DNA of 56,845 nucleotides from a virus. The position numbers and the translations under genes are program-made. The DNA is taken from IMG/VR virus record IMGVR_UViG_3300036985_002500, positions 1 through 56,845 of that record. One strand, written 5' to 3'. A model generated the notes under the pieces. It was not told where the DNA came from, ran no database searches, and worked only from the letters and a program-made list of their open reading frames with translations. How positions within the stretch are numbered: the stretch's first letter is position 1; the number at the start of each line of letters is the position of its first letter. Shown piece after piece: positions 6,390-37,700 of this stretch.

Positions 6390-7790
6390 ATGAGTGACAT
6401 TAAGATGCGTTCTGAACAGCTAGTAATAAACGCAATACTCACAGATCCATCTTGTATACATAACATAATGTCGAAGGTATCCTATGATATGTTCCATGTT
6501 CCTGTTCATAAATTGATGTTTGAAACAATAACTAACATCTATCTAAAGCAAGAGCCTATAAATCTTATTACAGTATTTACTTCTTTAAATAAAAGCAGTT
6601 CAATTAATAAATCAGAATCATTAAATGAGCTAACTCGCATACAATCAATGTTTAACTTCACCGATAAACTTGAGGTTGGTGATGCTATGAATTTATTAAT
6701 ATCGGAATCTATAAGGCATGAACATATAGATTTTGCTACTAAGGTTGGTAAGATATCTAATTCAGATAGCTATGATCCATCTACGGTGATAGATTTAATG
6801 CAGTCTCATATACTAGATAATAAACTAAAATCAATTCTAAACAAAAAAGATTTTACGAATGAAGATTTATTAGATGAGTTAGATAAGAAGATGCTTGAGG
6901 CCTCTGAGAACAAGGGTATAAGCGGAATAAAGACTGGATATGAAAGATATGACAAGGTAACAAGTGGCATGCAGCCAACTAACTTTATAATTATAGCTGC
7001 AAGGCCTGCGATGGGTAAGACTCAATATGCTCTTGGAATAATGAGAAACGCTAGCGTGAATGATAATAAGAAAGGTTTATTTATATCGTGTGAAATGGAT
7101 GAGGTTCAAGTAATGAAAAGAATCATAGCGGTAGATAGCGGAATACCTGGATATTCATTTAAGCGTGGTAATTTAACACCAAGCGAGAGGCATAGATACG
7201 AATACTCTAGGAAAAGAATAATTGATTCTAAGCTAAAGATTGTTGCTGGCTCATTTACTATTTCAGATGTATTATCATTGGTTTATAAAATGAAGAACTC
7301 AGAAGGACTTGACTATGTTGTTATAGACTACATACAAAAGATAACATCTCCTGGCACTCAGAATAGAACGAATGAAGTAGGTGATGTATCTAGGAAGCTT
7401 AAGGACATGGCAAATGATTTAAAGATTCCCGTCATAGCATTGGCACAATTATCAAGGGCGGTAGAACATCGTGTCGATAAAAAGCCTATGCTTAGTGACT
7501 TGAGAGAGTCAGGTGATATTGAACAAGACGCAGACATAGTTATGTTCCTCTACAGATCTGGCTATTACATGACTCCTGAAGAGAAGATGAGCAATCCACT
7601 AGCTGAAGATGGTTATGCTATAATAGCTAAACATCGTGATGGAGATTTAGAAGACATACAACTGAAGTTTGATTCAAATATCCCAGCATGGAAGAATCCA
7701 TTTCAGAAAGATGATTACATAAAAGAGTACGTACAAACTAAGATTGAGCCAAATACTGATTTTGATTATCAGGGATCTCAACCATTTTAA
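6390..7790 (+). CDS. dnaB: DnaB-type replicative DNA helicase (466 aa)
   Basis: Hexameric helicase that unwinds the fork 5'-3'. The N-terminal domain (about 1-150) is DnaB-like. The RecA core has Walker A AARPAMGKT (about 203-211), Walker B YVVIDYIQK (about 309-317), the sensor stretch ALAQLSRAVEHR (about 350-361) and SDLRESGDIEQDADIVMFLY. Length matches cellular DnaB. No inteins or truncation. With no phage polymerase or primase recognised, it must work with host replication enzymes. Confidence 0.93.
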   Translation: MSDIKMRSEQLVINAILTDPSCIHNIMSKVSYDMFHVPVHKLMFETITNIYLKQEPINLITVFTSLNKSSSINKSESLNELTRIQSMFNFTDKLEVGDAMNLLISESIRHEHIDFATKVGKISNSDSYDPSTVIDLMQSHILDNKLKSILNKKDFTNEDLLDELDKKMLEASENKGISGIKTGYERYDKVTSGMQPTNFIIIAARPAMGKTQYALGIMRNASVNDNKKGLFISCEMDEVQVMKRIIAVDSGIPGYSFKRGNLTPSERHRYEYSRKRIIDSKLKIVAGSFTISDVLSLVYKMKNSEGLDYVVIDYIQKITSPGTQNRTNEVGDVSRKLKDMANDLKIPVIALAQLSRAVEHRVDKKPMLSDLRESGDIEQDADIVMFLYRSGYYMTPEEKMSNPLAEDGYAIIAKHRDGDLEDIQLKFDSNIPAWKNPFQKDDYIKEYVQTKIEPNTDFDYQGSQPF

Positions 7791-7799
7791 AAATTGATT

Positions 7800-8843
7800 A
7801 TGAATGTATTAAGTTTATTCGATGGAATATCTGCAGGGCAAGTAGCTTTACAAAGAGCAGGAATCGCAGTAGAGAATTATTATGCAAGTGAGATAGATAA
7901 ATATGCCGTTCAGATAACTCAAAAAAATCATCCCAATACAATTCAGTTAGGAGACATAACTAAATGGAGAGAATGGGACATTGATTGGAGTAGTATTGAT
8001 ATGGTAATTGGAGGTAGTCCTTGTCAGGGATTTAGCTTTGCTGGTAAACAATTAAACTTTGAAGATCCACGAAGCAAATTGTTTTTTGATTACTTAGATA
8101 TTTGTAATCATGTAGCAGACCACAATCCAAAAATGAAATTCTTACTTGAGAATGTTAGAATGAAACAAGAATATCAAGATGTTATATCCGAATTTCTTGG
8201 AATATCTCCTATGTTCATGAATTCATCCCTAGTATCTGCTCAAAATAGACCAAGATTATATTGGACTAATATAAATGATGTAAGCGTACCTGAAAATAAA
8301 GATATAATGTTAATAGATATTATAGAAGGTAATAAAGTTGATGATAAATATATGTTGTCAAAGGAGGCTATAGATTACATGAGCAGATTAAGAAATGGAA
8401 AACCAAGATGGGAATACCACAAGAATCCATTAAACGGAAAGGCAGCTTGTCTAACTGCTAATATGTATAAAGGAGTTCCTTACGGTGTGATTACTATAGC
8501 TAATGACATAAATCTATTAATAGTTAATGAGGCTACTAAAAAAGGCTTTATAAATGTATTTCCTGGTGATGGAGTTGATTTAACATTCCCAAGTTCAAAG
8601 ACAAGAAGAGGTAGGTTAATGGAAGATAAAAGCAATTGCCTTACAGCTACAACTTATGATTATTGTTTTTGGGATGGACACGTTATTAGAAAGCTAACAC
8701 CTATAGAATGCGAAAGATTACAAACATTTCCTGATAATTATACCGAAGGAATTAGCAATTCTCAGAGATATAAATCTTTAGGAAATGGATGGACTGTAGA
8801 TATGATTGCTCATATTTTTTCACATATTAATAATAAAAAATAA
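7800..8843 (+). CDS. C5-cytosine DNA methyltransferase (347 aa)
   Basis: Transfers methyl from S-adenosylmethionine to cytosine C5. Motif I is LSLFDGISAG near the N-terminus, motif IV GGSPCQGFSFAG with the catalytic Cys at about residue 74, motif VI FLLENVR at about 117, motif VIII QNRPRLYW at about 150, and motifs IX/X (LTPIECERLQTFPDNY, SLGNGWTVDMIAHI) at the end. The spacing resembles the Dnmt3-like phage and orphan enzymes. I start at ATG 7800 rather than TTG 7794. No restriction endonuclease is adjacent, so protection from host restriction is the likely job. Confidence 0.92.
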   Translation: MNVLSLFDGISAGQVALQRAGIAVENYYASEIDKYAVQITQKNHPNTIQLGDITKWREWDIDWSSIDMVIGGSPCQGFSFAGKQLNFEDPRSKLFFDYLDICNHVADHNPKMKFLLENVRMKQEYQDVISEFLGISPMFMNSSLVSAQNRPRLYWTNINDVSVPENKDIMLIDIIEGNKVDDKYMLSKEAIDYMSRLRNGKPRWEYHKNPLNGKAACLTANMYKGVPYGVITIANDINLLIVNEATKKGFINVFPGDGVDLTFPSSKTRRGRLMEDKSNCLTATTYDYCFWDGHVIRKLTPIECERLQTFPDNYTEGISNSQRYKSLGNGWTVDMIAHIFSHINNKK

Positions 8844-8848
8844 ATTAT

Positions 8849-9154
8849 ATGTTTGAACAAATGAAGAAGTCAAAGGATAAAGTTTCTTATCTATTAAGAA
8901 ATCATCCTAAATTAAGAGATAGCGACTATAAATTAATTGCTACCTATTGGCACAAAGAAATAGGAGAAGACATCTCATCTATGTCTGCATTTGATTTACT
9001 TAAAAAAATAGCAGAAGGAAAGCTAACTAGTTCAGAATCAATAAGAAGGGTAAGACAAAAGATTCAAGAAGATAATCCTGAATTGCGTGGAGAAGTATGG
9101 CTGAATAAGCAATTAAAAAGCGAAGAGGTTAGAGAAAACATAAAGCATTTATAA
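8849..9154 (+). CDS. Conserved hypothetical phage protein (101 aa)
   Basis: A helical, basic protein with the pattern LRDSDYKLIATYWHKEIG, then SSESIRRVRQKIQEDNPELR and a final helix. I recall similar small proteins (D-S-D-x-K-L-I, R-R-x-Q-x-x-P-x-L-R-G) in many phages, without a function. A DNA-binding or regulatory role is possible. The stop shares one base with the next start. Confidence 0.65.
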   Translation: MFEQMKKSKDKVSYLLRNHPKLRDSDYKLIATYWHKEIGEDISSMSAFDLLKKIAEGKLTSSESIRRVRQKIQEDNPELRGEVWLNKQLKSEEVRENIKHL

Positions 9155-9366
9155 TGATAGGAGTATTAATAGACAAAGGATCTTGGTTTGTTAGGTATGT
9201 AGACTCAAAACAAAATATAAATGACATACCATTATACCATGAGCAGGCAATGATACTAGATAAATCAAAAGAAAACACATTCGTTTCATTTGAAAAGATA
9301 TGGGTTAAGAATAAGCTTTGGGTTGCCTTAATAAAATTTATTGACGAAGAAAAAATGAACGAATGA
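9154..9366 (+). CDS. Small hypothetical protein (70 aa)
   Basis: Begins MIGVLIDKGSWFVRYVDSKQ and reads like a small beta-barrel or SH3-type fold (alternating short strands, few helices). Coupled on both sides (one-base overlap upstream, four-base overlap downstream). No function recognised. Confidence 0.6.
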   Translation: MIGVLIDKGSWFVRYVDSKQNINDIPLYHEQAMILDKSKENTFVSFEKIWVKNKLWVALIKFIDEEKMNE

Positions 9367-10007
9367 ATATAAATTATAACGAAAGAATAGAATTATTAAA
9401 AGATAAGCTTCACGTATTAGAACAATGTAATAGATTGTACAATTATTTTTATCCAATTAAAAAATCTAAAAATAGCTATGTCGTTGAGATGAGAAGATTA
9501 GTTGGTCAGCAATTATATGACATAGGAATGTCAAAAGTAGATATATCAGGAATATTTGGGAAAGACCATTCTACAGTAGTTCATTTGCTAGGCATAGAAA
9601 GTAGTATAGATGTTCAAAAAGAAGTGGCTGATAAATATAAACTATGGATTGAGTTAGGTTTATATCCAGATTCTATATTTGTTTTAGAAGTTTCTGATAT
9701 ACATTTTAATGGACATAAGCATACTTTAGATTATATTTTAACTGACGAACTAACTTATGACAAAAACAGTAAAGAAAAGTATATGTCTAGATCTATAAGT
9801 AAATACTTTAAGGATAGAATGATGAATTTAATTTCATCAGAAGATTATACCTCATCTAGAGCTTCTCTTAATGATGCGTTTATTAATAAGGTTAAGTTTT
9901 CTCATCCTGATAACTATAAGTTAATAGAAGAGAAAGAAAGTGCATACAAAGAAAATATGCTGATTATAAATAGTAAAAATATTATTAATTATGATAGACA
10001 TATTTGA
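9363..10007 (+). CDS. Protein with a DnaA domain IV-like segment (214 aa)
   Basis: Residues about 36-75 (VVEMRRLVGQQLYDIGMSKV, then DISGIFGKDHSTVVHLL) follow the DnaA C-terminal signature: an initial V-x-x-R-x-x-x helix, S/K-x-x-x-I-x-x-x-F-G, and the DHSTV-x-H box-binding helix. No AAA+ ATPase is present, and the C-terminal 130 residues are unrelated. It probably binds DnaA-box-like sites in phage or host DNA, acting either in initiation or as a competitor of host DnaA. Its gene overlaps the next by 17 bases. Confidence 0.65.
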   Translation: MNINYNERIELLKDKLHVLEQCNRLYNYFYPIKKSKNSYVVEMRRLVGQQLYDIGMSKVDISGIFGKDHSTVVHLLGIESSIDVQKEVADKYKLWIELGLYPDSIFVLEVSDIHFNGHKHTLDYILTDELTYDKNSKEKYMSRSISKYFKDRMMNLISSEDYTSSRASLNDAFINKVKFSHPDNYKLIEEKESAYKENMLIINSKNIINYDRHI

Positions 10008-10949: not shown

Positions 10950-11328
10950 GAAATATGGCAATAAAAAAATAGAGCATGATGGAGTTAAATTTGACTCCAA
11001 GCTTGAGTTCTATTGCTATAATTTATTGAATTCCCTTGAGTTTAAATTTGAATTTCAACAAAAGTTAGTTCTTATTGACAAGTTCAAATACAATACAGAG
11101 TCTATTAGAGCCATAACGATGATAATAGACTTCGTATTATCTCATGGAGATACAATTATATACATTGATACAAAAGGATTCGCTACAGAGGTATCTAAAA
11201 TAAAGTATAAGATGCTAAAGAATCATTTAAAGAATGAAATTAACACAAGAGTTATATGGCTTCACTCACAAAAAGAAGTCAATGAATTTTTAAACAATCT
11301 AAAAAACAATAAAGATGTCAACAATTAA
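10933..11328 (+). CDS. DUF1064-like phage nuclease (131 aa)
   Basis: I start at ATG 10933 (MLSKGRKYGNKKIEHDGVKF), overlapping the preceding gene by 17 bases; a longer TTG start at 10915 is less likely. The pattern KYGNKK-x-x-x-DG-x-x-FDSK-x-E at the start, FEFQQKLVLI, then IIDFVL and YIDTKGF matches the DUF1064 family, a small endonuclease-fold group related to Holliday-junction resolvases. Catalytic acidic residues and the K of DTKG are present. A role in resolving replication or packaging intermediates is probable. Confidence 0.75.
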   Translation: MLSKGRKYGNKKIEHDGVKFDSKLEFYCYNLLNSLEFKFEFQQKLVLIDKFKYNTESIRAITMIIDFVLSHGDTIIYIDTKGFATEVSKIKYKMLKNHLKNEINTRVIWLHSQKEVNEFLNNLKNNKDVNN

Positions 11329-11710
11329 CAAAGTAATTCTATTAGGTAACGTAGGTTCAGTAGATGTAAAAGAATTTGATGGTGGTAAAAAGCTAGTTCA
11401 AGTATCATTAGCAACTTCTGAAAGTTATAAAAAAGGAGATGAGTACGTAAACAAGACAGAGTGGCATAGATGTATATTCGCTATACCTAATTTGGCTGAT
11501 AGAGCTGTAAATATTAAGAAGGGTGATAAGATATATGTAGAAGGAAGTGTATCAACAAACTCTTGGACTTCAAAAGAAGGAGAAAAGAAAGAGAATAAAG
11601 AGATTTCTTGCATTATGTTTAAGACTTTTCAGAAAGCTGATTCATCAAAAGAAGATTTGTCTAATGCATCTATTCCTCAAGGATCTTTAGTAGATGATAT
11701 TATATTTTAA
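11315..11710 (+). CDS. ssb: Single-stranded DNA-binding protein (131 aa)
   Basis: OB-fold SSB: starts MSTINKVILLGNVGSVDVKE, with LVQVSLATSE, TEWHRCIF, and GDKIYVEGSV at the positions usual for bacterial SSB. The disordered linker is very short, and the C-terminus ends in the acidic tip DDIIF, the peptide that recruits replication and recombination partners. Its gene overlaps the preceding nuclease gene by 14 bases. Confidence 0.92.
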   Translation: MSTINKVILLGNVGSVDVKEFDGGKKLVQVSLATSESYKKGDEYVNKTEWHRCIFAIPNLADRAVNIKKGDKIYVEGSVSTNSWTSKEGEKKENKEISCIMFKTFQKADSSKEDLSNASIPQGSLVDDIIF

Positions 11711-11770
11711 AATAAGTTACACTAAGCAGGTTACTGTAAACAAAACTACGGCTGCATTGAGTTGTGGCTG

Positions 11771-11778
11771 TATATTTG
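11771..11778 (+). promoter_or_regulatory. Promoter -7 box before the lipoprotein gene
   Basis: TATATTTG, an exact TAnnTTTG box, about 100 bases upstream of the lipoprotein start. No good TTG is at the usual distance. The gene would therefore have its own expression signal and a long untranslated leader. Confidence 0.4.
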
Positions 11779-11875
11779 TCCAGTTTTTTTTATAATAAAC
11801 GGGACATAACATTTTGTAGATAAGCGAAGGCAAAGATTTATAAACAAAAATTTTAACTTAAAAACAAATATAATT

Positions 11876-12145
11876 ATGAAAACGAAAACATCAATTTACC
11901 ACCGCACCTTTGCTTTTGCTTATGCGCTGTTAGTAGCTGTTATTTTTTGCGGTTGTGAGCCGATAAATAATGAGCAACAAAAGAAAGTAGAAGCAACAGA
12001 ATTAAACGATTATTCTGTAAGCAATGAAGGTGTACAAATATTAACTATTGATAGTTGCGAATATGTTTGGTGTAAAAATGGTCATGGTGCAGGATTAACA
12101 CATAAGGGGAACTGTAAATTTTGTGCAGAACGTAGCAAGAAATAA
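11876..12145 (+). CDS. Small lipoprotein, probable accessory gene (89 aa)
   Basis: N-terminal basic region, hydrophobic h-region (about 12-24) and lipobox F-C-G-C with the acylated Cys at residue 27: a type II signal peptide, so it is placed in the host inner or outer membrane. The mature protein ends in CKNGHGAGLTHKGNCKFC, a Cys/His-rich tail. It is monocistronic, has its own promoter box, and its 5' codons (CAC CGC ACC) look less AT-biased than neighbours. It is followed by an attC-like repeat. A superinfection-exclusion or host-fitness role is an inference. Confidence 0.7.
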   Translation: MKTKTSIYHRTFAFAYALLVAVIFCGCEPINNEQQKKVEATELNDYSVSNEGVQILTIDSCEYVWCKNGHGAGLTHKGNCKFCAERSKK

Positions 12146-12152
12146 TTGCTAC

Positions 12153-12198
12153 TAACATCCGTATAGGCGCACGTTTCAATGGCGTTTATACCTTGTTA
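12153..12198. repeat. attC-like imperfect inverted repeat
   Basis: TAACA (12153-12157), GTATA (12161-12165) and CGC (12168-12170) pair with GCG (12182-12184), TATAC (12187-12191) and TGTTA (12194-12198), with unequal spacers of 3 and 2 bases. Terminal TAACA/TGTTA with inner boxes and unpaired bases is the form of integron attC recombination sites. No integron integrase lies in the window. Confidence 0.4.
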
Positions 12199-12213
12199 TG
12201 AAAATTATAATCC

Positions 12214-12244
12214 GCCAAAATCATAATTATTTTATAATTTTGGC
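12214..12244. promoter_or_regulatory. AT-rich hairpin after the lipoprotein gene
   Basis: GCCAAAAT (12214-12221) pairs perfectly with ATTTTGGC (12237-12244), and ATAA (12223-12226) can extend with TTAT (12232-12235). No T-tract follows. It may terminate lipoprotein transcription or protect the RNA end upstream of the tRNA-like genes. Confidence 0.4.
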
Positions 12245-12255
12245 ACAGTATAAAA

Positions 12256-12330
12256 TAGTGAGGTGGCGTAATGAGGCGAGGTTGCCAAGTCCTATATGGT
12301 TGCTTTACGGTTCGAGTCCGCCCTCACTAC
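12256..12330 (+). tRNA. tRNA-like gene, possibly degenerate
   Basis: The ends pair as an acceptor stem (TAGTGAG with CTCACTA, or AGTGAGG with CCTCACT) and the T-loop is canonical (TTCGAGT at 12311-12317). Total length of 75 nt is normal. The middle folds poorly: the best anticodon arm I find is GCCAA/ATGGT with one mismatch and anticodon CCT, that is Arg, and the D and T stems each contain mismatches. So it is either a decayed tRNA or an unusual one; the anticodon call is weak. CCA is not encoded. Confidence 0.5.
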
Positions 12331-12346
12331 TAATTATTAATAATAA

Positions 12347-12453
12347 GACTAAGTAGCGTAAGTGGGAATGAATACCACCTTGGGTAACGTGTTTGCTAGA
12401 ATAGTATTCTTTAAATAGGCAGATAGATGAGAGTTCGAATCTCTCCTTAGTCA
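12347..12453 (+). tRNA. Large tRNA-like gene with perfect acceptor and T arms (107 nt)
   Basis: GACTAAG (12347-12353) pairs with CTTAGTC (12446-12452), discriminator A at 12453, and the T-arm GAGAG-TTCGAAT-CTCTC (12429-12445) is perfect. At 107 nt it is longer than a class I tRNA (about 75) or class II tRNA (85-95). An internal hairpin AGAAT-AGT-ATTCT lies inside a further stem pairing TTTGCT with GGCAGA, which could be a giant variable arm or an insertion. I cannot assign the anticodon. Confidence 0.55.
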
Positions 12454-12467
12454 CTAAATTTAAAATT

Positions 12468-22697: not shown

Positions 22698-25600
22698 TTA
22701 GTTATATGTTTTGTAAACTTTCTGCTTTTCACCAGTTGGATAAGCTTCTATAACTTTCGCAGGCTTAGTAGGAAGTTTAACTTCATTGATTTTGTACCCT
22801 TGTTCTTCATCAATGATATAATCTTCTCCTCCACTAAATATTTTATATAAATAATCTACTTTATTTCTTTCTTTAGACATTTGAAAGTAATCTTCTTCGT
22901 AATTCATCAAAGCATCATTAAGTCCTTTATCTCCTTTGATGTATTGAGTCATATTGCTAATTAAATCATCTATATTTTTAAATCCAATTGCCTTAGAAAT
23001 ATCTCTAGCCTCTGCATCGGTTAGTTTATTCCAAAATATTTGATTATTATATTCTTCAAATAATTTTGCTACAACTTCAGGATCAAATTGATTAATGTAT
23101 TCACCACCAACATTTCCAAATATATCTACCGCCCCAGCCTCTGAAGCAAATTCAAGTTGATCTTCTTTAGATAAATCTTCAAACTTTCTATAGCTAGCAG
23201 CTGGAACTATCGCTGGTAATGTTGCAAGTTTTTGAACAAAATTAACTACTGGAATATTATTTTTCCAAATATCACCTCTCATTGCATTTAATGTCCAGTC
23301 TCCTAAATGACCAATAGCTCCATAGCCTTGTAAATCAGAACCTATTTGATCCCAAACTATATCATGTCTGATTCTTTTATCTTCATCATCATCGCTTGAC
23401 ATCATCGCTCCTACTGCCCCAGATGCAACTACTGAGAATAATACAGATCCAAATGCGGAATAATATACTATATCAGTTATCGCCTGAACTTTTTCACGAG
23501 TAGTCAATGTAGTTCCAGAGTTTAATAATTTAACAGCATTTATAACCTTTTTAGCCATAGAAGCTTGTCCAGTTCTATATGTTCCAGCCATTCTCCATAA
23601 TGGATCTCTTTGTATATTACTTGTTAAATCTACTCTAGTTGATTGTTGTGTTTTTTCCGTTTCTTCTACCCATCTTCTATAAGCATAATCAGCAGCTTCT
23701 TCTTTACTCATACCTTCAGATAGTCTTTGTCTATATGTAGCTAATGCAAAAGCACTACCGCCACCTGGGCCGTATGCAACAGCTAACATATCACCAACTA
23801 TAATTGGAGACATCGCAGCTTGATTAGCTATAATCCATCCCTTTGCTGTCTTTGATTTTAAAGCTGCATCTATTACTTTTTTTGTCTCAACATCAATAGA
23901 TCCACCTCTCATTCTATCTTTTCTATAATCACTATTCCATAATGATTTTACGAAATCCCACTCCTCTTTATTTGTTGGCACAGTTCCTCCCCATATTTGC
24001 CAAGGATCAACTCCATCAGCGATACCAGCTGTCCAATAGTGAGTAAATGAAGTAAACTGTTTAGCAATACTCGCTGGTTTAAATCCAAGAGTAGATAGCA
24101 CACTAAAATTAAGTAATTGGCTGATACCTTTGCTATATGTAGTAGTTCCTGTTTTTGGAGTACTATTGCTAAGGATAACTGCCATGTGTTCTCTTAATTC
24201 ATTGTACTTATCTAAGCCCATATTTGTTATTAAGTATGGTGCATTTGTAGTACTAAATAATTGATTAGTTTTTTTAGCTATTTCAAATAGATTTCTTGAA
24301 TGCTCCATATTCTTTATATAATTAAGATATACGTTATGTGCATTCATATTTAAATCATATTGATCGTTAAATCTAGTTCTTTGCTTTAAGTTATTTGTAA
24401 CCGCACTCATAGCATTTATTGTTCCGTCTTCATTTAATACCGAATCTATATCAATAAAATCTTCATCAAAGTTAGACGCATACTCTGGGTAGTATAACTT
24501 CTCAGGGAATGGCATATTATTAGCAGCTTCGTATATTGGCTCATAATCCACTTTGCTATCCTCATATTTCTGCATTAAGAAATCAGCATAATCCTTAAGG
24601 TCTTGATTTGCATCCATATACTTTTCAAGTGCAAGTACATCTACTCCAGATTTAGCTAATCTTTTTGGCCCATTTTCTACTCTTAATAAATTATAATAAT
24701 TTACCATGTGTGAGTTTGTTATCTGATAAAATTCTCTCAATTTATTATTTACTGGATTATCTTTATCGGATATTGTGTCAGACAATCTACTTATGCCTTT
24801 TCTTTTAGAGCCAAATATTTCATTAAATCCAGCATAATATTCTCTTATCTTAACCGCTTGACCATGCAATATATCGTGCATAGCTTTAATTAATGGCCTT
24901 TCTATATTATCAGTAACATATTTCTTTACGGCATCACTCTTTGCCCAAGTGCCTTTTAATAGTGAATATATATCAGACATAGCATTAAGTGGATTCAATG
25001 CTCTAGCTACTCTTCTAAATACCTTAGCGTCTCTTCTTCTTACTGCTTCTCTAGTAAAAGCAATGTTTTCTGCTTCATATCCTTCAACATTAGAAAAATA
25101 TGAATCAGGCAATCCTACTGTAGATGTGTTTTTATTTTTTGCACTAGGTGGTTTAAATGCTGCCATATCAGCCTTCTTATACAGTCTTCCTTGTATAATT
25201 ACAGCTCCACCATTTTCAAGAAATTCAATTATTTCTTCTCTAGTATTTAAAATAACATCTGGAGTTTTAGCCAAACCTTTAAGTAGTGTTGCGTTTTCTA
25301 CTTTCTTGGTATCTTCTTTTGCGTTATTAAATGTTTTAAAATCTGCTTTTCCAGTATCTATTATGTCCTCTATAATTTTCATTATAGCATCTAACTCTTC
25401 CTGAGTCTTTAATTCTAAATCATCTAAAGCTCCACTATTAATGAACTCCTTAAATTCTCTCTGAGATTCAACTGTAGTTTTACCTTTCCACTTATCGTTT
25501 ACCTTAGTTAAGAATTCTCTTTTATTTTTTATTTTCTTTACAATATTTTTAGCTGTTAAAATTCTTTTAGCTTCAGCTTTATTCTCAATCATTTTATCAA

Positions 25601-28600
25601 TTCTAGTAATAGCTGTATCTAATGCCTTAGCTGTTTCAGCTTTACTTATTGACTTCATTAATAAATCTGTTTGAGCTTTAGAGTAAAGTTCTTTTGGAAG
25701 ATTTTCTTTAGCATAAGCTCTGATTTGCTCTTTCATCCCTTGAATGAATTTAACTGCGTCTTTAGCTCCTGCTTCTTTATTTTTTAACTGCTCTCTTAAT
25801 ACTTGACTATTAGTCATTGATACAGTAGGCTCTTCTTTAGCTGTTCCAGTTGCTTCGTCTACTTTTGCTTTAAACTCTTTAGCTGCATCTCTTTCTGCTT
25901 TGCTAATTCTCTTTTTAGGAAACTTTTCATTCATTCCCTTTTTATAATCTTCAAAAGCTTGAGTTCTCTGTTCTTTACCTAAATCTTTGTACCATTGAGA
26001 TTCTTTAATTTTTTTAAATCCTTCAGTTATAGCCTTTGCAATACTTACTCCTGCGTCTACTGCTGTAGCTACTATTTCTAATGAGCCATTAAACGCTTCT
26101 TTAAATCCAGGTATAGCAGACATTGCCATTCCAGTTCCACTTATTTTACCAGCACGAATCCTATCACCTAAAGATTCAAATTTTTCTTCTATTTTAGATT
26201 CTTCTTTTGACTCTTTAGTAATATTTAACATATCACCAGCATTAGATCTATCTCTCAAGTAAGCATTTAACTCTCTTCTAGAATCAAATAAATCATCTTC
26301 AGATAATAAATTTCCTATATCATTAATAGTAATTTCATCTGCTAAATTATCTAATTCATAAGGTAAATTATTTACTTCTCCTTTTCTAGCTTCAGCAACT
26401 AAGTCAAGTATTTCAGACGCATAACTATCTGGAAATTTATTTCTAATTGAAGTTCTAAATGCATTTAATTCTTCATTAGTCATTGGTCTATCAATCCTAT
26501 CCTGCCATGACTCTGCTTTCTCTTTTGGAGCTGCTTTTTCTGTTGACGATTCTGGTGCTTTAGATAATAAATCTTCTACAGCTTTTACTAGTTCAGGACT
26601 ACTACCATTTGCTTTAGCTTTATGATAGGCTTCTGCTATTGATTTTTTATTATTAAATGATTCAGGCAATTTAGTTATTTCTGTTTCATTTTCTGAAACA
26701 CTCTTTATAATAGAATCATCTATAACAATAAGTTCATTCCTTGATCTACTCGCAAAATCTTCACGTAGCAAAATAGCTTTTACACCTTTATCTTTTAGTA
26801 CTTGCAATTGAGCGTCACTTAAAGTTTCCCCTCTATATGGTAAGTTGTTTTCTTTTAGATAATTTGTAAAATCATCTGTATTATCGAAATAAATTAATCC
26901 ATCATTCTCAATAGAAGTATATATCTTGTCACCAGAATCTCTTCCAAATCTATCCATTGTACTCCAGTCTTCACTACTAAAATAAACACCAGGTATTGGT
27001 GAATCTATTGATGTTTCTTTAGGGTTAAATCCATTTTTCAATATTGATTTTTTATCTTTTGAATTTCTAGATAAATGAACTAAGTTTATTATTTTAGGAA
27101 GAAAAGATATTTTTGATGGTAATTTTACACTTTCTTTTTTATCACTTTGTTTTGCTATTTCTTTTATTTTTAAATCTCCTCCTGTAATTACAAATTTACC
27201 ATCACCTGCATCTTCAAACTTAACTGAATCATAGGTAGCTGATTCCAACGCTTTAGCTGTACTATCTATTTCTTCTTGTGTAGGAGCAGCTACCTCTTCA
27301 GTAACTACTGCTTGTGGATTGTATTCAAATTTATTTTCACCAACTTTTTTAAAGCCATTTTTTTCATAAAAATTACCTAACCTTTCCAAGTTAGTATCAG
27401 AATCCAATTCATTTGTAGTATCTAAAACTATTTTCTTACCCGTTCTATCAGCTTCTGATTTTACTGTTTCAAGTACCTTTGTACCTATACCTTTACCACG
27501 ATTTTCTTTTCCTACATAAACAGCAGTTAAATTTAAATCATCTCCTTTAGGAGTTAATAATACACTTGCATCAGGATTTTCTTCTGCTATCTTATTATTT
27601 ACTTCTTGTGCTGTGGCATAATTTTCTTCTGGAGTTTTAGCTACCGCTTCTGCCATTGGAGCTTCTTCAGTTGCGACCACTGGTTTTACAGCAGCTAATT
27701 CAGCATCATACTTAGCATTGATTTTATCTCTTGCAGCTTTGAAACTTTCAGACTCAACCTCAACTACTCCATAAGCACCAACTACTGGTTCTTTAGATCT
27801 GTCAATTTTATATTTAGCCTCAAGTGCTGTTATCTCGTCTTGTCTTCGTTGTTCAATATCAACTTTCTTAGTGTCTACTTCTGTGGGTTCTTCTTGAACC
27901 ACTCCACTAGGGCTAACCTCTTCTTTGCCTGCCCCAACGATAGGTTCGGTTTTGATAGGTTCTTTCCCTTTTGCGACTTCACCTGATACCCCTGTCTCGT
28001 TTTCTTGATCATTTACTACGGATTTATCTTCTAATTTATCTATTGCTTCTTTCTTTCCTTCTTTAGTCTTAACATATTCTGCGTATTCACTAACTGATCT
28101 CTCAGCAGAAGCTACGTCAGCTCCTATTTGAGCAAGTATTTTATCTAATCTAGCTTTCTTATCATCAGGTAATGCGAAGTATGCATCCTTACTACTGGTT
28201 GGCGATACTATTCCAAATGCAGAACCCATAACAAATGTTGACAATAAGAATTCTTCAACCTTATCAATAGATCCATATTGCTCCTCAATAGCAGACATCA
28301 TTTCTTGAAAGTTATCAGTTTGGCTATATATACTAGCTAACTGAGAGCCAGTTTCGTCACCTATTTCCGCTACCCCTCTTGCTGAAATCTTTCCAGCACT
28401 TTTCATTATATCAATAGCATCGCTAGTCTTATTGCCAAATATTGACTTAACCCATTTATACGCCTCAGTCTTAGGTGCTCCAGCCATTATTCCAGTAAGA
28501 GATTCAGATAGAATACCACCAGCTAATCCATTAAACCAATTTAATTCTCCTTCTGTAGATCCGACTACAGATCCACCAATCTCAAATTTAATACCTTGCT

Positions 28601-31490
28601 CAATACCAGCTTTAGATACTGGCAACAAGAATCTACCTAATTTTGTAGTTGATAAAGTAGCATCATATATATTTTCAGCTTTATTTAGGGTAGTTAATAC
28701 CTTGCTAGTACCTTGAACTCCAACTAATAATTTCTCTAATCCAACTCCTAATTTTAAAATTCCAGGCCCTACCCCTCCAGTAAGCACAAGTGGAGTAATA
28801 ATACCAACTGTAGAACCGCCCATTTTACCAAGATTCTCACGACTCATAAAATCAACAGCAGCTCTTTCCTCCATTCTTTGAATTGTAGCCTTATCAACAT
28901 ATCCATCAGGATCAAATCCTTGATTAGTCAATTCAGAAATCATTGTATTATTCATCTCAGACTTAGCAAAATATCCATCTGCCTTAGCTGTTTTTGGAGT
29001 TAATGTTTGAGCAATACCATTCATAAATGACTCAAAAAATCCAGTTGACTCATTTGTAAACCCAGTATCATTATTATAATACAATGTAGACATTTGATTT
29101 AGAGTACCTACATTTTGAAGGTATGTCTTCTCTACGTCTGATAATTTATAAAATCCATCCCAGTCAAATAAATCTTTAAATCTTCTATTAACAGATTGAA
29201 AATATCCATCGTCTAGATTATTATCTTTTGCTAATTTATTATTATCTGCTTGTAGTTGCTCATAATAAAAATCAAATCTTTGCTTAGGAGTTATATCTGA
29301 AGGTATAGCATTAAATATATTTTCTGCCATTGGAGACATATTAGTAGATACTGCCTGAACCAATTTTTTAGGTTGAGTTAAAAATACAGTAGACTTAGAA
29401 ATTTCTTCATCCTCTATAATTATATCAATGTATTCTAACTTTTTTCTTTCCTTTAATAGTTGTCTATATAAATCCTGATACTCTGGTCTTGATGAATCAC
29501 CTCCAAATACAGCTAATGATTTTTCTAATTTTTCTATATTAAATTGAGTATTTTCTTTATTAGATTTTTGCTGAATTATTCTATCGTTTGTAGCTGAGTA
29601 TCTTTCATTGTTAAATTTATCATAAGCCTCATTCATTGAAGACAATTTAGACTCTATGTAATTTCTTTCTTTTGAATTTAATGATGGAGAGTATATATAT
29701 CCACCATTCTTAGTGTCGGCCCTCATGTTCCCATTCTCAATATTCTCTAGCACAAAGTCAGACATTTTTGATGTTATCTCAAACAACTCTCTTGCATTTA
29801 TCTGAATATTTGAATCATCTTTTAAATCAAAGTGTTCTAAATATGTTTTCTTTTTATTATCTAGAGACATTCTAGCTAAACTCTTTCCTTGCTGAACACC
29901 TTCATTTACTTTTACGTTAAATGCCTTAGATGCATTAAAGAATTCTTCTGCATCTTTCAATGATTCAGCAATTACAGATGCTTTAGCTACATCGTATTTT
30001 CCGTCTCCTATTATTTTCTTTATCTCTTGTTGCTTTTGGATTATACCATCTTTTTGTTCTTGGGATAATTTATCTCCCATTAACATATTTACATCCTTGT
30101 TAATGAACTCATTAGCATCTTCAAATGCTTTATCGTATAAATCAACTTTATTTAATGCATCTGAATTTAAAAGTCTATTAGTCTCATCAACCATGTTAGC
30201 ATATCCAGTGCCGAAAGCTTTTATGTTTAATTTCTGTCCGTCAGTTCTTAATGTAGCTATCTCGCTAACCTTTGGTGTTCTATATGCATACTTTTCTAGC
30301 TTTTCTATTCTTTGATTTACATCTCCTTCAGTTAATGGTTGATATTTACCATTTACAGATCCTGCTTTATACCAATTATTACCTGACTTTTTGAAGCTAG
30401 CATCGCTATCAGGAAGTGAATAAATACCATCAGGTTTCCCTTTATAATCTACTAGATTAGCTACTTCTCTTGGTAAAGACTTTTGTATTTCAGCTTTTTT
30501 CTCATCGTAATTAAAATTTAAAGTTCCATCCTGATTATATCTTTCAGTTTCAGAACCTATATTTTTTCTTATTAATGTATTAAACGCTATATTATCTGCT
30601 ACCATTGGGCTTCCAGATGCAGTTAAAACAGAATTAGCATTAAAGTCAGTTATATTACCAAATCTTTCTGATATATTTTTATCAGTATTAATTGATGCTT
30701 TTGACTTAACATCTTTCCCATCTCCAACTTGTTTAGCATCTCTTTCTAATAATGCTATTCTTCTAGCTGCATCTTTTTCTATAGGAAGGAAATTTCCAGA
30801 ACTATCGTAATCTTTAAGCCACTTATCTTTACCTACTTTTTTATACATAGCATCTGGCTGACCAGCGTATACATAAGTTCCATTAGGTTTTTCTTTATCG
30901 TCTTTGTTTACCTTTCGTACAACTCCATCGCTATCTACCTTAATACCAGAAGCTTTATAAGTTGTATTGATTTTATCTAACTCAACTTTCTTGTCTTGCT
31001 CAGGACTCCCGATAGATAGTCCATCTTCTGTAATGAGAGACATTGGCTCTTCATTAATTACTTCTTCAGTTTTAGTTTCTACTGGTTGAACTATTGGATT
31101 TGGATCTTCACTAATATATAAACCATCCTCTGTGTATGAGCCTTGAGGCTTAATAGCACTTTCTCTAGGTTGGTCAACGAACATTTCTTCATTGAATCCT
31201 TGCAGATTTACTGGTGTTAAATTTAACTCAGAATATAATCTGTCTTCACTTGATTGTTCTGCTTGAATTTCAGGCTGAATAACCTCTTCTTGAATTGGAG
31301 CTGTAGGAATATCTTGTGTAGGAACAATAGCTTCAGGCTGTGCACTTGGTTGTACACTAGCCTGAACTTGTTGTTTTGGAAGTTTTATATTGAATTGTTC
31401 TGCTGTAACTTCTGATTCTGGAGAAGATTGTATAGTTTCGCCAAATCCACCAGTTTGAGTAGACATTAAGTCTTTAGAGCTTGTAGCCAT
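22698..31490 (-). CDS. Giant polyvalent-type ejection protein with GNAT and ART-like domains (2930 aa)
   Basis: Largest gene in the window. N-terminal 150 residues are Pro/Gln/Glu-rich and disordered, then long helical regions. Residues about 1280-1400 show a GNAT fold: VYVGKENRGKGIGTKVLETV (acetyl-CoA loop) and FYEKNGFKKVG. Residues about 1465-1595 resemble an ADP-ribosyltransferase: VHLSRNSKDKKSILKNGF, GVYFSSEDWST, and a late RNELIVIDD. The C-terminal third has helical, partly hydrophobic segments and an FSVLSTLGFKPASIAKQF region like domains found in large phage entry proteins. Being in the virion block next to the 831- and 232-aa proteins, it is probably injected with the genome. Catalytic residues need confirmation. 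Confidence 0.72.
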   Translation of the reverse strand: MATSSKDLMSTQTGGFGETIQSSPESEVTAEQFNIKLPKQQVQASVQPSAQPEAIVPTQDIPTAPIQEEVIQPEIQAEQSSEDRLYSELNLTPVNLQGFNEEMFVDQPRESAIKPQGSYTEDGLYISEDPNPIVQPVETKTEEVINEEPMSLITEDGLSIGSPEQDKKVELDKINTTYKASGIKVDSDGVVRKVNKDDKEKPNGTYVYAGQPDAMYKKVGKDKWLKDYDSSGNFLPIEKDAARRIALLERDAKQVGDGKDVKSKASINTDKNISERFGNITDFNANSVLTASGSPMVADNIAFNTLIRKNIGSETERYNQDGTLNFNYDEKKAEIQKSLPREVANLVDYKGKPDGIYSLPDSDASFKKSGNNWYKAGSVNGKYQPLTEGDVNQRIEKLEKYAYRTPKVSEIATLRTDGQKLNIKAFGTGYANMVDETNRLLNSDALNKVDLYDKAFEDANEFINKDVNMLMGDKLSQEQKDGIIQKQQEIKKIIGDGKYDVAKASVIAESLKDAEEFFNASKAFNVKVNEGVQQGKSLARMSLDNKKKTYLEHFDLKDDSNIQINARELFEITSKMSDFVLENIENGNMRADTKNGGYIYSPSLNSKERNYIESKLSSMNEAYDKFNNERYSATNDRIIQQKSNKENTQFNIEKLEKSLAVFGGDSSRPEYQDLYRQLLKERKKLEYIDIIIEDEEISKSTVFLTQPKKLVQAVSTNMSPMAENIFNAIPSDITPKQRFDFYYEQLQADNNKLAKDNNLDDGYFQSVNRRFKDLFDWDGFYKLSDVEKTYLQNVGTLNQMSTLYYNNDTGFTNESTGFFESFMNGIAQTLTPKTAKADGYFAKSEMNNTMISELTNQGFDPDGYVDKATIQRMEERAAVDFMSRENLGKMGGSTVGIITPLVLTGGVGPGILKLGVGLEKLLVGVQGTSKVLTTLNKAENIYDATLSTTKLGRFLLPVSKAGIEQGIKFEIGGSVVGSTEGELNWFNGLAGGILSESLTGIMAGAPKTEAYKWVKSIFGNKTSDAIDIMKSAGKISARGVAEIGDETGSQLASIYSQTDNFQEMMSAIEEQYGSIDKVEEFLLSTFVMGSAFGIVSPTSSKDAYFALPDDKKARLDKILAQIGADVASAERSVSEYAEYVKTKEGKKEAIDKLEDKSVVNDQENETGVSGEVAKGKEPIKTEPIVGAGKEEVSPSGVVQEEPTEVDTKKVDIEQRRQDEITALEAKYKIDRSKEPVVGAYGVVEVESESFKAARDKINAKYDAELAAVKPVVATEEAPMAEAVAKTPEENYATAQEVNNKIAEENPDASVLLTPKGDDLNLTAVYVGKENRGKGIGTKVLETVKSEADRTGKKIVLDTTNELDSDTNLERLGNFYEKNGFKKVGENKFEYNPQAVVTEEVAAPTQEEIDSTAKALESATYDSVKFEDAGDGKFVITGGDLKIKEIAKQSDKKESVKLPSKISFLPKIINLVHLSRNSKDKKSILKNGFNPKETSIDSPIPGVYFSSEDWSTMDRFGRDSGDKIYTSIENDGLIYFDNTDDFTNYLKENNLPYRGETLSDAQLQVLKDKGVKAILLREDFASRSRNELIVIDDSIIKSVSENETEITKLPESFNNKKSIAEAYHKAKANGSSPELVKAVEDLLSKAPESSTEKAAPKEKAESWQDRIDRPMTNEELNAFRTSIRNKFPDSYASEILDLVAEARKGEVNNLPYELDNLADEITINDIGNLLSEDDLFDSRRELNAYLRDRSNAGDMLNITKESKEESKIEEKFESLGDRIRAGKISGTGMAMSAIPGFKEAFNGSLEIVATAVDAGVSIAKAITEGFKKIKESQWYKDLGKEQRTQAFEDYKKGMNEKFPKKRISKAERDAAKEFKAKVDEATGTAKEEPTVSMTNSQVLREQLKNKEAGAKDAVKFIQGMKEQIRAYAKENLPKELYSKAQTDLLMKSISKAETAKALDTAITRIDKMIENKAEAKRILTAKNIVKKIKNKREFLTKVNDKWKGKTTVESQREFKEFINSGALDDLELKTQEELDAIMKIIEDIIDTGKADFKTFNNAKEDTKKVENATLLKGLAKTPDVILNTREEIIEFLENGGAVIIQGRLYKKADMAAFKPPSAKNKNTSTVGLPDSYFSNVEGYEAENIAFTREAVRRRDAKVFRRVARALNPLNAMSDIYSLLKGTWAKSDAVKKYVTDNIERPLIKAMHDILHGQAVKIREYYAGFNEIFGSKRKGISRLSDTISDKDNPVNNKLREFYQITNSHMVNYYNLLRVENGPKRLAKSGVDVLALEKYMDANQDLKDYADFLMQKYEDSKVDYEPIYEAANNMPFPEKLYYPEYASNFDEDFIDIDSVLNEDGTINAMSAVTNNLKQRTRFNDQYDLNMNAHNVYLNYIKNMEHSRNLFEIAKKTNQLFSTTNAPYLITNMGLDKYNELREHMAVILSNSTPKTGTTTYSKGISQLLNFSVLSTLGFKPASIAKQFTSFTHYWTAGIADGVDPWQIWGGTVPTNKEEWDFVKSLWNSDYRKDRMRGGSIDVETKKVIDAALKSKTAKGWIIANQAAMSPIIVGDMLAVAYGPGGGSAFALATYRQRLSEGMSKEEAADYAYRRWVEETEKTQQSTRVDLTSNIQRDPLWRMAGTYRTGQASMAKKVINAVKLLNSGTTLTTREKVQAITDIVYYSAFGSVLFSVVASGAVGAMMSSDDDEDKRIRHDIVWDQIGSDLQGYGAIGHLGDWTLNAMRGDIWKNNIPVVNFVQKLATLPAIVPAASYRKFEDLSKEDQLEFASEAGAVDIFGNVGGEYINQFDPEVVAKLFEEYNNQIFWNKLTDAEARDISKAIGFKNIDDLISNMTQYIKGDKGLNDALMNYEEDYFQMSKERNKVDYLYKIFSGGEDYIIDEEQGYKINEVKLPTKPAKVIEAYPTGEKQKVYKTYN

Positions 31491-34779: not shown

Positions 34780-37700
34780 TTATTTTAACATTTTGTATTG
34801 TACCCCAGTATTTGTAACTAAAAATTCCTCATCTGATATACTAACTATTTTGAATATAACTAGTCTTCCTTGTTGTCTATAATAAGGAGATAATAATTTT
34901 CTAGGTATATAACATTCGTATCCAAAGTAATCTTTTATGCTTAATGGATTAAGCACAGAATCTACTACCGAAGAGAATGTATCCGTTTTATAGTCATCGT
35001 ATGAATCATAGAAGTATATCTTCTCTGGTTTACTATTTGAGTTTACTCTTATTCTTATAAATTCTTTATCTGAATATATTTCCTTATCAGAAACTCCAGC
35101 TACATAACATTCAATAGGATCTCCATTCAATTCATTCCCTACACCAAGTTGGTAAGTTTCAGAATCCTTCATTCCATATAGCTTATTTCCTATGTACAAA
35201 TACTTGTCGTACAAGTACGAACTTTGGCATTGAAGAGCAGATTGGTCTATTCCGTATATAAGTGTGCTTACAGCGTCTTTTAATTGGTTGTTTAGTACAC
35301 TCATTATATACTCTTTATTGAGTACATTAAATCCACCACATAATTTTGAACTATAACCTATTCCTAAGTTGGAAATAAATTTAGTATTCAATAAATCAAA
35401 GAATCCAGTTTTAGATATCTCAGTCAATGAATTTCCAGCGAAAGAATATGCAGATGTATTATTAACAAAAAATATAGCGTTTGAGTATTCAGCCCATGAC
35501 CTCCATGTTTCATCACTCATCCCAATACTTCTATCTATCCATAATTGGTTTAATATACCTCCTATATCAGAACCAACAGTAGCTAGTTCATTTGCATTTA
35601 TCTCATGGATAATTCTCTTATCTATAACTAAAAGACATATTCCGCTATCTGTAAATGCATACAAGTTATTTCCCTTATCTTCTGACAATGCACTCCAAGC
35701 AAACTTTATACATCCCGTATCATCAGATATATCATAATAGTTAGGCACTGGGAATGTCTTTACAGTATCCGAATTCTGAACATTCACTGGTCTTTTCTGT
35801 GACCAAACTATTCTAGTACAGAAATCTGTTTGCTCTGTATATCCAATTAATGGTACACTTGTATATGTATCGGTAGTCTGTGACTTTGAATAATCTATAT
35901 TTACTTGAGGTAAGAATCTAAATCCACCAAAAGGCCATAAGCTCCATTCGTATCCATAGTCATTAAAGTAATCAGGTCTTAAATGATTATCTTGTTCAAA
36001 TGTTGTTCTCTCAGATTCATTACCAGTCTTCCACTTGTAAGGTCTTGGTATATAGTTTATTAATGGGAATGTCTGATCTGAAATTGCCTTATCTGGAGAT
36101 TCATTATTAAACTGAAAAGATAAATTACATCTAGTCTCAGCAGTCCACATTAATATAAGTTGTCTTATAAATGCTGACCTACCAAATACACTTGAGAATC
36201 TAAATTTATCTGTTGAGTAGTTGTGTCCACCAAGTATATCTGAGTTTATCCAAACTCTATAGTTATCTGCATATTTATAGCTTCTAAATGGAAATGGTAT
36301 ATTCATTAAGAATTCATTCTCAGTAGATGCAACTTTACCATTACTAGAGTATTGATTATCTTGATGAGACCATACTGAATCATTAATATATGTATCTCCA
36401 CCAAATATTCTTACTGGTATTCTATTATCATATTTTACATATACTTTGTATCCAAGTGGAACAATTGTAAACTGCTCATAACCAGTAACAACACTAAATT
36501 GAAGCGTAAATCCTTCATATAGTTTAGGTGAATTCTGATTACTCTTGTATATACCAAATATTTGATATGTTCCAGATGAGTCAGTAACTGTAGTCGATCC
36601 ATTAATACTAGCATCCATAGCAACTAAAAGAGCAGTTATAACAGCTCCAGATAAAAAGTTAGCATTTAACCAACGATATTCTATTCCGTTCTCATCCTCT
36701 AGATATACAAATCTATATAATGAATTATAACTATTGTATAGTTCTCCAGTTATTTTAGGTATACAATCTTCCCATCTCTCAGAAACTAATTCAACTGTTT
36801 GATAATCAGCACCGCTAGACTCTAATACTAAAGACTTGAATTTTATATAGTTACCAGTATACTTGTACTGAGTAGTAAGTCCTGGATTTATATTTACATC
36901 TTTTACAAGGTTTATAACGTATAATGGTTCTCTCCAATTCATTACGCCATCGTCATAAGCATCTCTATCTCCAGCTGTATACATTTCATTGTATATATCT
37001 TGAGACAATTCAATATCCAAATACTCTTGCAGACCTGTCTTGGTAGCAATTATAGAAGCTGTATTTACATTGAATATATTATTTGTTCCATTATTAGATG
37101 GAAAAGATGGAGTATCACTAGGCGAGAAATTTGTATACTTACCATAAGCCACATATCCAAAACCATCAGGATCTGGAAGACCAGTATTTGTACCTAGACC
37201 TGGATTAATAGTTCCAACTCCAGGGATTCCTATTCTATCTCTTAATACTCTAGCGTATGTAATTATATCAGCTCCCTCATCTCTTGTTCCATCCCCAATA
37301 TCTACTGGGCTATTAATATGAGAATATACTTCTGAGAAATAACCAAGAGGAGATACGCATTGTATCTGATATGTAGATGGATTATTTAAGAAATCTTCAT
37401 AAATATCTGGAGACGTATGCTGTAAGTCAGGGAAATAAGCGTGAAGATGATTTTTAAATTTACCTGAATCATTTCCTAGTCCATCATTAGCAGTAAATAA
37501 AGAATAGAATCCAAGACCTTGAGCTAATACTCTTCTTGCTGGCTCTGTTTGAACAACTGAGAATCCATCAGCAAATTGTGGATAGCTTAGTAATCCTTTG
37601 AATGCTGCCCCTTGTGCGTAATAATCAAGACCAAATGCTTGTGGCTTAGAAGGAATAAAATCATCAAAAGCTGCTGATACTTCATCATTTATTAGAGATG

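Follow-up and report, generated by a model that had tools for sequence, protein, structure and literature searches.

How did a single small lipoprotein gene come to lie between ssb and a tRNA gene in a phage, and what is the dyad that follows it? The locus belongs to one virus record of 56,845 bases, possibly incomplete, which we analysed as a whole and refer to as the window. We put at roughly 0.87 the probability that the lipoprotein gene is an integron-type cassette, of which a tyrosine recombinase acting in trans would exchange the folded gene strand of a hairpin (11808-11932), at AA^C. The features of the locus are collected in Table 1.

Table 1. Features of the lipoprotein locus, in window coordinates
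Feature	Position	Strand	Remarks
ssb	11315-11710		Upstream neighbour of the lipoprotein ORF
DNA from ssb stop to cassette	11711..11807	+	Ends GGGACATAA; not alignable to L071
Mobile cassette	11810..12155	+	C-hairpin with start codon-GTT-lipoprotein body-AA; cut assumed AA^C on gene strand
attC-like hairpin of cassette	11808..11932	+	Scanner score 13.5; conserved in relatives
Lipoprotein gene	11876-12145	+	89 aa; start codon within hairpin loop; from ORF and translation
Second, short attC-like site	12154..12198	+	CGTTTCAATG loop; the lipoprotein cassette ends at its left AAC
Inverted repeat common to window and L071	12213..12245	.	From local alignment with L071 and repeat scan
tRNA-Arg	12256-12330		Downstream neighbour of the lipoprotein ORF

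The lipoprotein ORF is the only one between ssb and tRNA-Arg, as the original prediction of a monocistronic gene had it, and its product, a putative lipoprotein, has a signal peptide and a lipobox-like AVIFCGC motif. The promoter box attributed to the gene is present in so far as a TANNTTTG box is found at 11771-11778, but a promoter is not established, because no TTG lies at the usual distance from it and such boxes are common here by chance. The odd codons noticed at the 5' end are real (FAFAYAL), and they are explained as the right arm of the upstream hairpin. Comparison with a close relative (L071) revealed a phage without the insert: the two are 87% identical up to ssb, and the shared phage sequence picks up again at the inverted repeat, at 12213, which is the right limit of the inserted region, with neither the lipoprotein gene nor the hairpin in between. 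The origin of the DNA that separates the ssb stop codon from the cassette is unsure, and it is possibly a remnant of another cassette. The window encodes a portal protein of the P22 type, which among annotated phages matches fecal phage records alone, and weakly, including one whose name marks it as crAss-like; we infer that the host is likely a member of the Bacteroidota. Searches with the DNA of the locus in phage and plasmid collections returned no matches, and an Rfam search returned no relevant one.

The dyad reported downstream of the gene is real and reads TAAC-ATCC-GTATAGGCGCA-[CGTTTCAATG]-GCGTTTATAC-CTT-GTTA. Alone it is borderline, being equalled by 28 of 500 shuffles, yet it falls into a recurring class of short sites whose loop is CGTTTYAATG; this class has 100 occurrences in the fetched loci, some of which overlap one another, as against one in shuffles of 120 of these loci. 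The upstream hairpin, which the original prediction overlooked, is the stronger site: it is equalled by 1 of 500 shuffles, and it matches model R1, built from 46 sites with the window copy among the training rows, at 93 bits (E 3.5e-18). It covers the 5' untranslated region and the first 18 codons. Its left arm, GTAGATAAGCGAAGGCAAAG, pairs with CTTTGCTTTTGCTTATGCGC in the coding sequence, where CTTTGCTTTTGCTTATGCGC encodes the core of the signal peptide, and both the right arm and the GTTA box lie within the coding sequence, G^TT(AG) falling between codons 18 and 19. An arrangement in which the gene would sit inside one large hairpin, with the right arm 3' of the lipoprotein, was discarded, as no such arm is found there. 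A CALIN is defined by two or more attC sites in the absence of an integrase; the window has one strong site and one short one, and its locus would at most be a candidate.

Loci that encode relatives of the lipoprotein number 69 in viral contigs and 4 in genome contigs. Of 13 loci that were aligned, 12 share conserved DNA running from ...TAAC|GTTTTGCAGATAAGCGAAGGC 5' of the gene to TTGCTACTAAC 3' of it, with unrelated sequences outside and a variable hairpin after the gene. Since the conserved DNA runs from the hairpin to TTGCTACTAAC and the following hairpin differs among relatives, the site that travels with the gene is the upstream one. The original prediction had assigned this role to the downstream dyad; instead, the conserved unit has its hairpin upstream, over the start codon, and ends TTGCTACTAA. 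The same end points are exactly conserved in other phages and in one chromosome, with unrelated DNA beyond them, and within the unit the lipoprotein varies in its middle part but keeps a conserved end, HKGNCKFCAERSKK. The chromosome is that of a member of the Flavobacteriales (L076), in which, as in other phages, the cassette is bounded by AAC and lies between unrelated genes. Whether the element adjoins other cassettes had been proposed as a test, and in many phages it does; together with its absence from the 87%-identical relative, this bears out the idea of a captured mobile cassette with attC-like sites. A tyrosine recombinase gene adjoins the lipoprotein cassette or its array in L076 and in a phage contig (L013). 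The thirteenth locus (L039, 2932-3260) shares this hairpin and N-terminus, but at GTTA they continue in frame into another lipoprotein-like body, which gives the impression of an exchangeable signal peptide. A single AA^C exchange does not explain this combination, which counts against our best explanation.

As for the function of the cargo, it was suggested that the lipoprotein might mask a receptor. Small phage lipoproteins act in exclusion in other systems, and this small lipoprotein is carried by many different phages. However, we found no characterised homologue of it, nor a match in the defence library, and a role in superinfection exclusion or as a phage surface factor appears rather unlikely.

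It is tempting to propose how the unit might move. The recombinase would bind the folded gene strand of the hairpin and cut it at AA^C, a bond that AAC junctions cannot tell from its neighbours, and the resulting cassette circle would be joined to attI or to another site. The mobile unit would be [C-hairpin with start codon-GTT-gene body-AA], so that the gene would enter carrying its start codon inside its own recombination site. We infer that the array-adjacent recombinase described below does the cutting, at this exact bond and on the gene strand. Phage_integrase has no match anywhere in the 56.8-kb window record, which may be incomplete; as the record holds no recombinase, the enzyme would have acted in trans, supplied by a chromosomal system of the host or by a co-infecting phage.

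Phages in which such an enzyme accompanies the sites were found by a search with the phage recombinase P0003, which yielded 64 viral loci on contigs of up to 465 kb; a T4-type portal is encoded in 8 of 10 tested contigs longer than 100 kb. These loci hold 214 sites on the recombinase strand, 7 on the other and none in shuffles, counts to be read bearing in mind that complementarity was among the criteria by which sites were picked and that IMG/VR contigs include near-duplicates. The sites concentrate on one side of the enzyme gene, with 205 in 234 kb 5' of it as against 9 in 291 kb 3' of it, and at least one 5' site is present in 54 of the 55 usable contigs, i.e. those with at least 700 nt of sequence 5' of the recombinase. 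Where the last cassette ends, some 50-60 nt ahead of the recombinase start, there is a conserved attI-like sequence, AAC|TATTATATATA; sites like it occur within 110 nt 5' of the phage recombinase at 53 of 62 loci, the place expected of an integron attI. Successive array sites are spaced by a median of 380 nt, and the ORFs of the arrays (164 sense, 7 antisense; median 82 aa) are small, the cassette genes being read toward attI. One phage contig, L004, has eight sites in 3.2 kb, between small ORFs. Among 126 array proteins there are few Pfam matches, which include Lar restriction alleviation and a GNAT acetyltransferase, and PADLOC finds no match in this set. The ends of BLAST matches over all arrays were set aside, as they were diluted by matches of recombinase genes.

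Several peculiarities of these arrays deserve mention. In L004 (1948-2196 and 2259-2516) and L013 (127-294), the reading frame runs through the right box TGTTAG, which is translated as DVS or GVS, and the cassette genes concerned have unrelated, hairpin-encoded N-terminal parts. Very short elements of the form GTTATAAAAT-CGTTTTAATG-TTTTATAAC are present in L155 (~4930), L179 (~286), L154 (~358) and L163 (~2339 and ~2730); they resemble cassette bodies without a gene, and several lie directly at attI. Unlike all other loci, L206 has eight sites (6868-9750) 3' of a partial recombinase match, perhaps a second array.

The sites themselves are imperfect hairpins with AAC/GTT boxes, whose consensus is GTTATAAGC rather than a strict GTTRRRY. 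Distinct sites cluster in size near 85 and 125 nt, and their spacers are uneven: 4-6 nt separate AAC from the left arm, and 1-3 nt precede GTTA. Boxes taken from opposite ends of a single cassette agree better (6.30/7) than those across one hairpin in an array (3.23/7), which is expected if both ends meet in a circle. Changes that affect both members of a pair are common, with a covariation of 0.702 in these sites, which were chosen by complementarity; shuffles give 0.172, and sliding lowers the value to about 0.1. Calculated with DNA parameters, the fold energy favours the gene strand at 144 of the 152 sites, contrary to the classical bottom-strand case. A start codon in the hairpin with an ORF continuing for at least 25 codons past the right box is present in 92 of 214 sites on the gene strand as against 6 of 214 on the other. 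The loops of 125-nt sites contain loose repeats such as AAGCACAAA..TT.AAT (alignment A1).

The Polaribacter phages Freya, isolated on one host strain and with genomes of 44.0-48.9 kb (PMC8776804), amount to a natural experiment. Their authors took the integrase as a sign of temperate life and made no mention of integrons or cassettes (PMC8776804). We compared seven near-identical isolates. In Freya_1 the site that precedes the integrase gene, AAC|ACCCCTATAACAACAATAAG, is empty, and the arrays of Freya_2, 5 and 9 are exact prefixes of that of Freya_10, after which they jump to AAC|ACCCCTATAACAACAATAAG. Freya_6 has a different last stretch of the array, which amounts to one swapped cassette, and Freya_8 misses one internal stretch, exactly from AAC to AAC. 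All five joins tested have a hairpin, equalled by 0 or 1 of 200 shuffles, and the cassettes have little in common beyond AAC at the joins. Judged from these genomes, in which products rather than events are seen, the differences are cassette gains at attI and precise losses of single cassettes. Against our best explanation, the Freya recombinase is only 35% identical to P0003 and forms a long branch in the tree.

Bacteroidota chromosomes harbour similar arrays. Matches to R1 are present in 126 of 247 genomes sampled from the phylum of the L076 genome, Bacteroidota, and are often clustered; recombinases like P0002 adjoin the R1 clusters in many of the genomes tested. The first chromosomal loci inspected near relatives of P0002 had few sites, partly because the flank was only 1.5 kb. 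On the array side of the recombinase, 69 matches were counted in 14 regions, on one strand per region, and none in six 20-kb control regions on its other side, a contrast of position rather than of frequency since the regions were chosen partly for known hits. A candidate attI, ATAAACRAG|TT, follows many chromosomal recombinase genes and is likely the attI of these systems.

By sequence, the recombinase is a sister lineage of IntI that has no IntI-specific insertion. The phage and chromosomal enzymes form one group beside IntI in a midpoint-rooted tree, apart from XerC and XerD of the same genomes, and 36 of 38 examined have intact catalytic motifs, two being truncated. Between two motifs they have 58-65 residues as against 106 in IntI (one IntI could be measured). 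Their match to the IntI4 structure breaks at the IntI-specific insertion, and those to TIGR02249 (213 bits for P0002 and 159 for P0003, with a cut-off of 265) are split at model positions 181-231; the additional domain specific to IntI is found in neither the phage nor the chromosomal recombinases. P0002 passes the cut-off of NF040815, and the closest solved relatives are the XerC-like 4a8e and IntI4, 2a3v. The related integrases of phages Leef and Ingeline form long branches in the tree, and these phages have no array of model R1 sites.

Might canonical IntI move the cassette nevertheless, with the downstream dyad as its own attC and a cut at G^TT? This dyad does look attC-like. In addition, IntI-type integrons and clusters without integrase (CALINs) were described in phages in 2023 (Qi et al., PMC9892861), including Polaribacter phage P12002L, one of whose two tested attC sites recombined with IntI1 in E. 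coli (PMC9892861); P12002L carries sites of the class described here. True IntI passes its cut-off in 3 of 22 array-bearing genomes, but there were no R1 sites in the DNA examined around the IntI loci, and IntI (TIGR02249) as a partner of the arrays was rejected. Moreover, it is the hairpin before the gene that is conserved and the one after it that differs from relative to relative, and the Freya phages join at AAC beside attI. We regard canonical IntI as a very improbable agent.

Slightly less credit still goes to another hairpin-using element, such as a single-strand transposon like IS200/IS605, or to homologous recombination between repeats as the means by which the unit moved. The gene strand folds better, as in such transposons, and L039 may reflect an exchange between similar hairpins; however, the array-adjacent gene encodes a tyrosine recombinase with intact catalytic motifs, gain takes place at one attI beside that gene, and the Freya cassettes share little besides AAC at their joins. 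Lastly, the borderline downstream dyad and the many weak dyads expected from AT-rich DNA might suggest a fortuitous dyad, or a terminator that follows an ordinary phage gene. This reading is refuted by the array, attI and Freya evidence and is barely credible given the score of the upstream hairpin, the recurrence of the class in arrays with attI and recombinase, and the empty locus of L071.

An integron-type cassette moved by the sister recombinase has much in common with known integrons: small genes are arrayed between hairpin sites with AAC/GTT boxes, a tyrosine recombinase has an attI next to it, and cassettes are gained at this attI and lost precisely, one at a time. Unlike in integrons, the recombinase belongs to a sister lineage of IntI that lacks the IntI-specific insertion, the hairpin precedes its gene and in many cases contains the start codon, folding favours the gene strand and the spacers are uneven. 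As the IntI-specific domain is a defining feature of integrons, we call the system integron-like rather than a canonical integron, and we regard it as a novel variation on the integron principle, in phages and Bacteroidota chromosomes. The fold family and catalytic motifs are also those of XerA, XerC and XerD (NF040815, TIGR02224, TIGR02225), whereas the genes described here adjoin cassette arrays and group with IntI in the midpoint-rooted tree. Integrons are treated as bacterial platforms defined by IntI. Among the complete genomes of Bacteroidetes, just one complete integron was recorded in one study (PMC9024848). The phage integrons and CALINs of Qi et al. share attC-like sites and cassettes with ours and have an IntI-type integrase or none, whereas here phages possess an attI and a non-IntI recombinase of their own, and the cassette content varies between isolates. 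In the literature searched, which left aside preprints and most subscription papers, we came across no description of an autonomous phage system based on a non-IntI recombinase, or of its Bacteroidota counterpart.

More broadly, and with less assurance than for the cassette itself, Bacteroidota phages, including jumbo phages, probably carry their own working integrons, with an IntI-sister recombinase devoid of a domain thought necessary and attC sites that fold on the gene strand and supply start codons; small genes would be exchanged with related integrons of host chromosomes, in one shared cassette pool. If so, a sister system with sites in about half of the 247 Bacteroidota genomes and an enzyme borne by many phages would represent a large unseen route of gene exchange, and it may explain the source of many orphan small phage genes. 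It would also raise the questions by what route integron integrases evolved from Xer-like enzymes and whether they truly need the IntI-specific domain. Because the Freya phages are in culture, the movement of cassettes is open to direct tests.

Elsewhere in the window, two very large ORFs are present on the minus strand, at 22698-31490 (2930 aa) and 34780-39285 (1501 aa), the latter without a clear PHROG match. A tRNA-like sequence, GACTAAG ... GAGTTCGAATCTC ... CTTAGTC, is found at 12340-12460. It has a long interruption and is not called by ARAGORN, and L071 has similarly interrupted tRNA-like stretches after ssb; they are possibly intron-bearing or split phage tRNAs.
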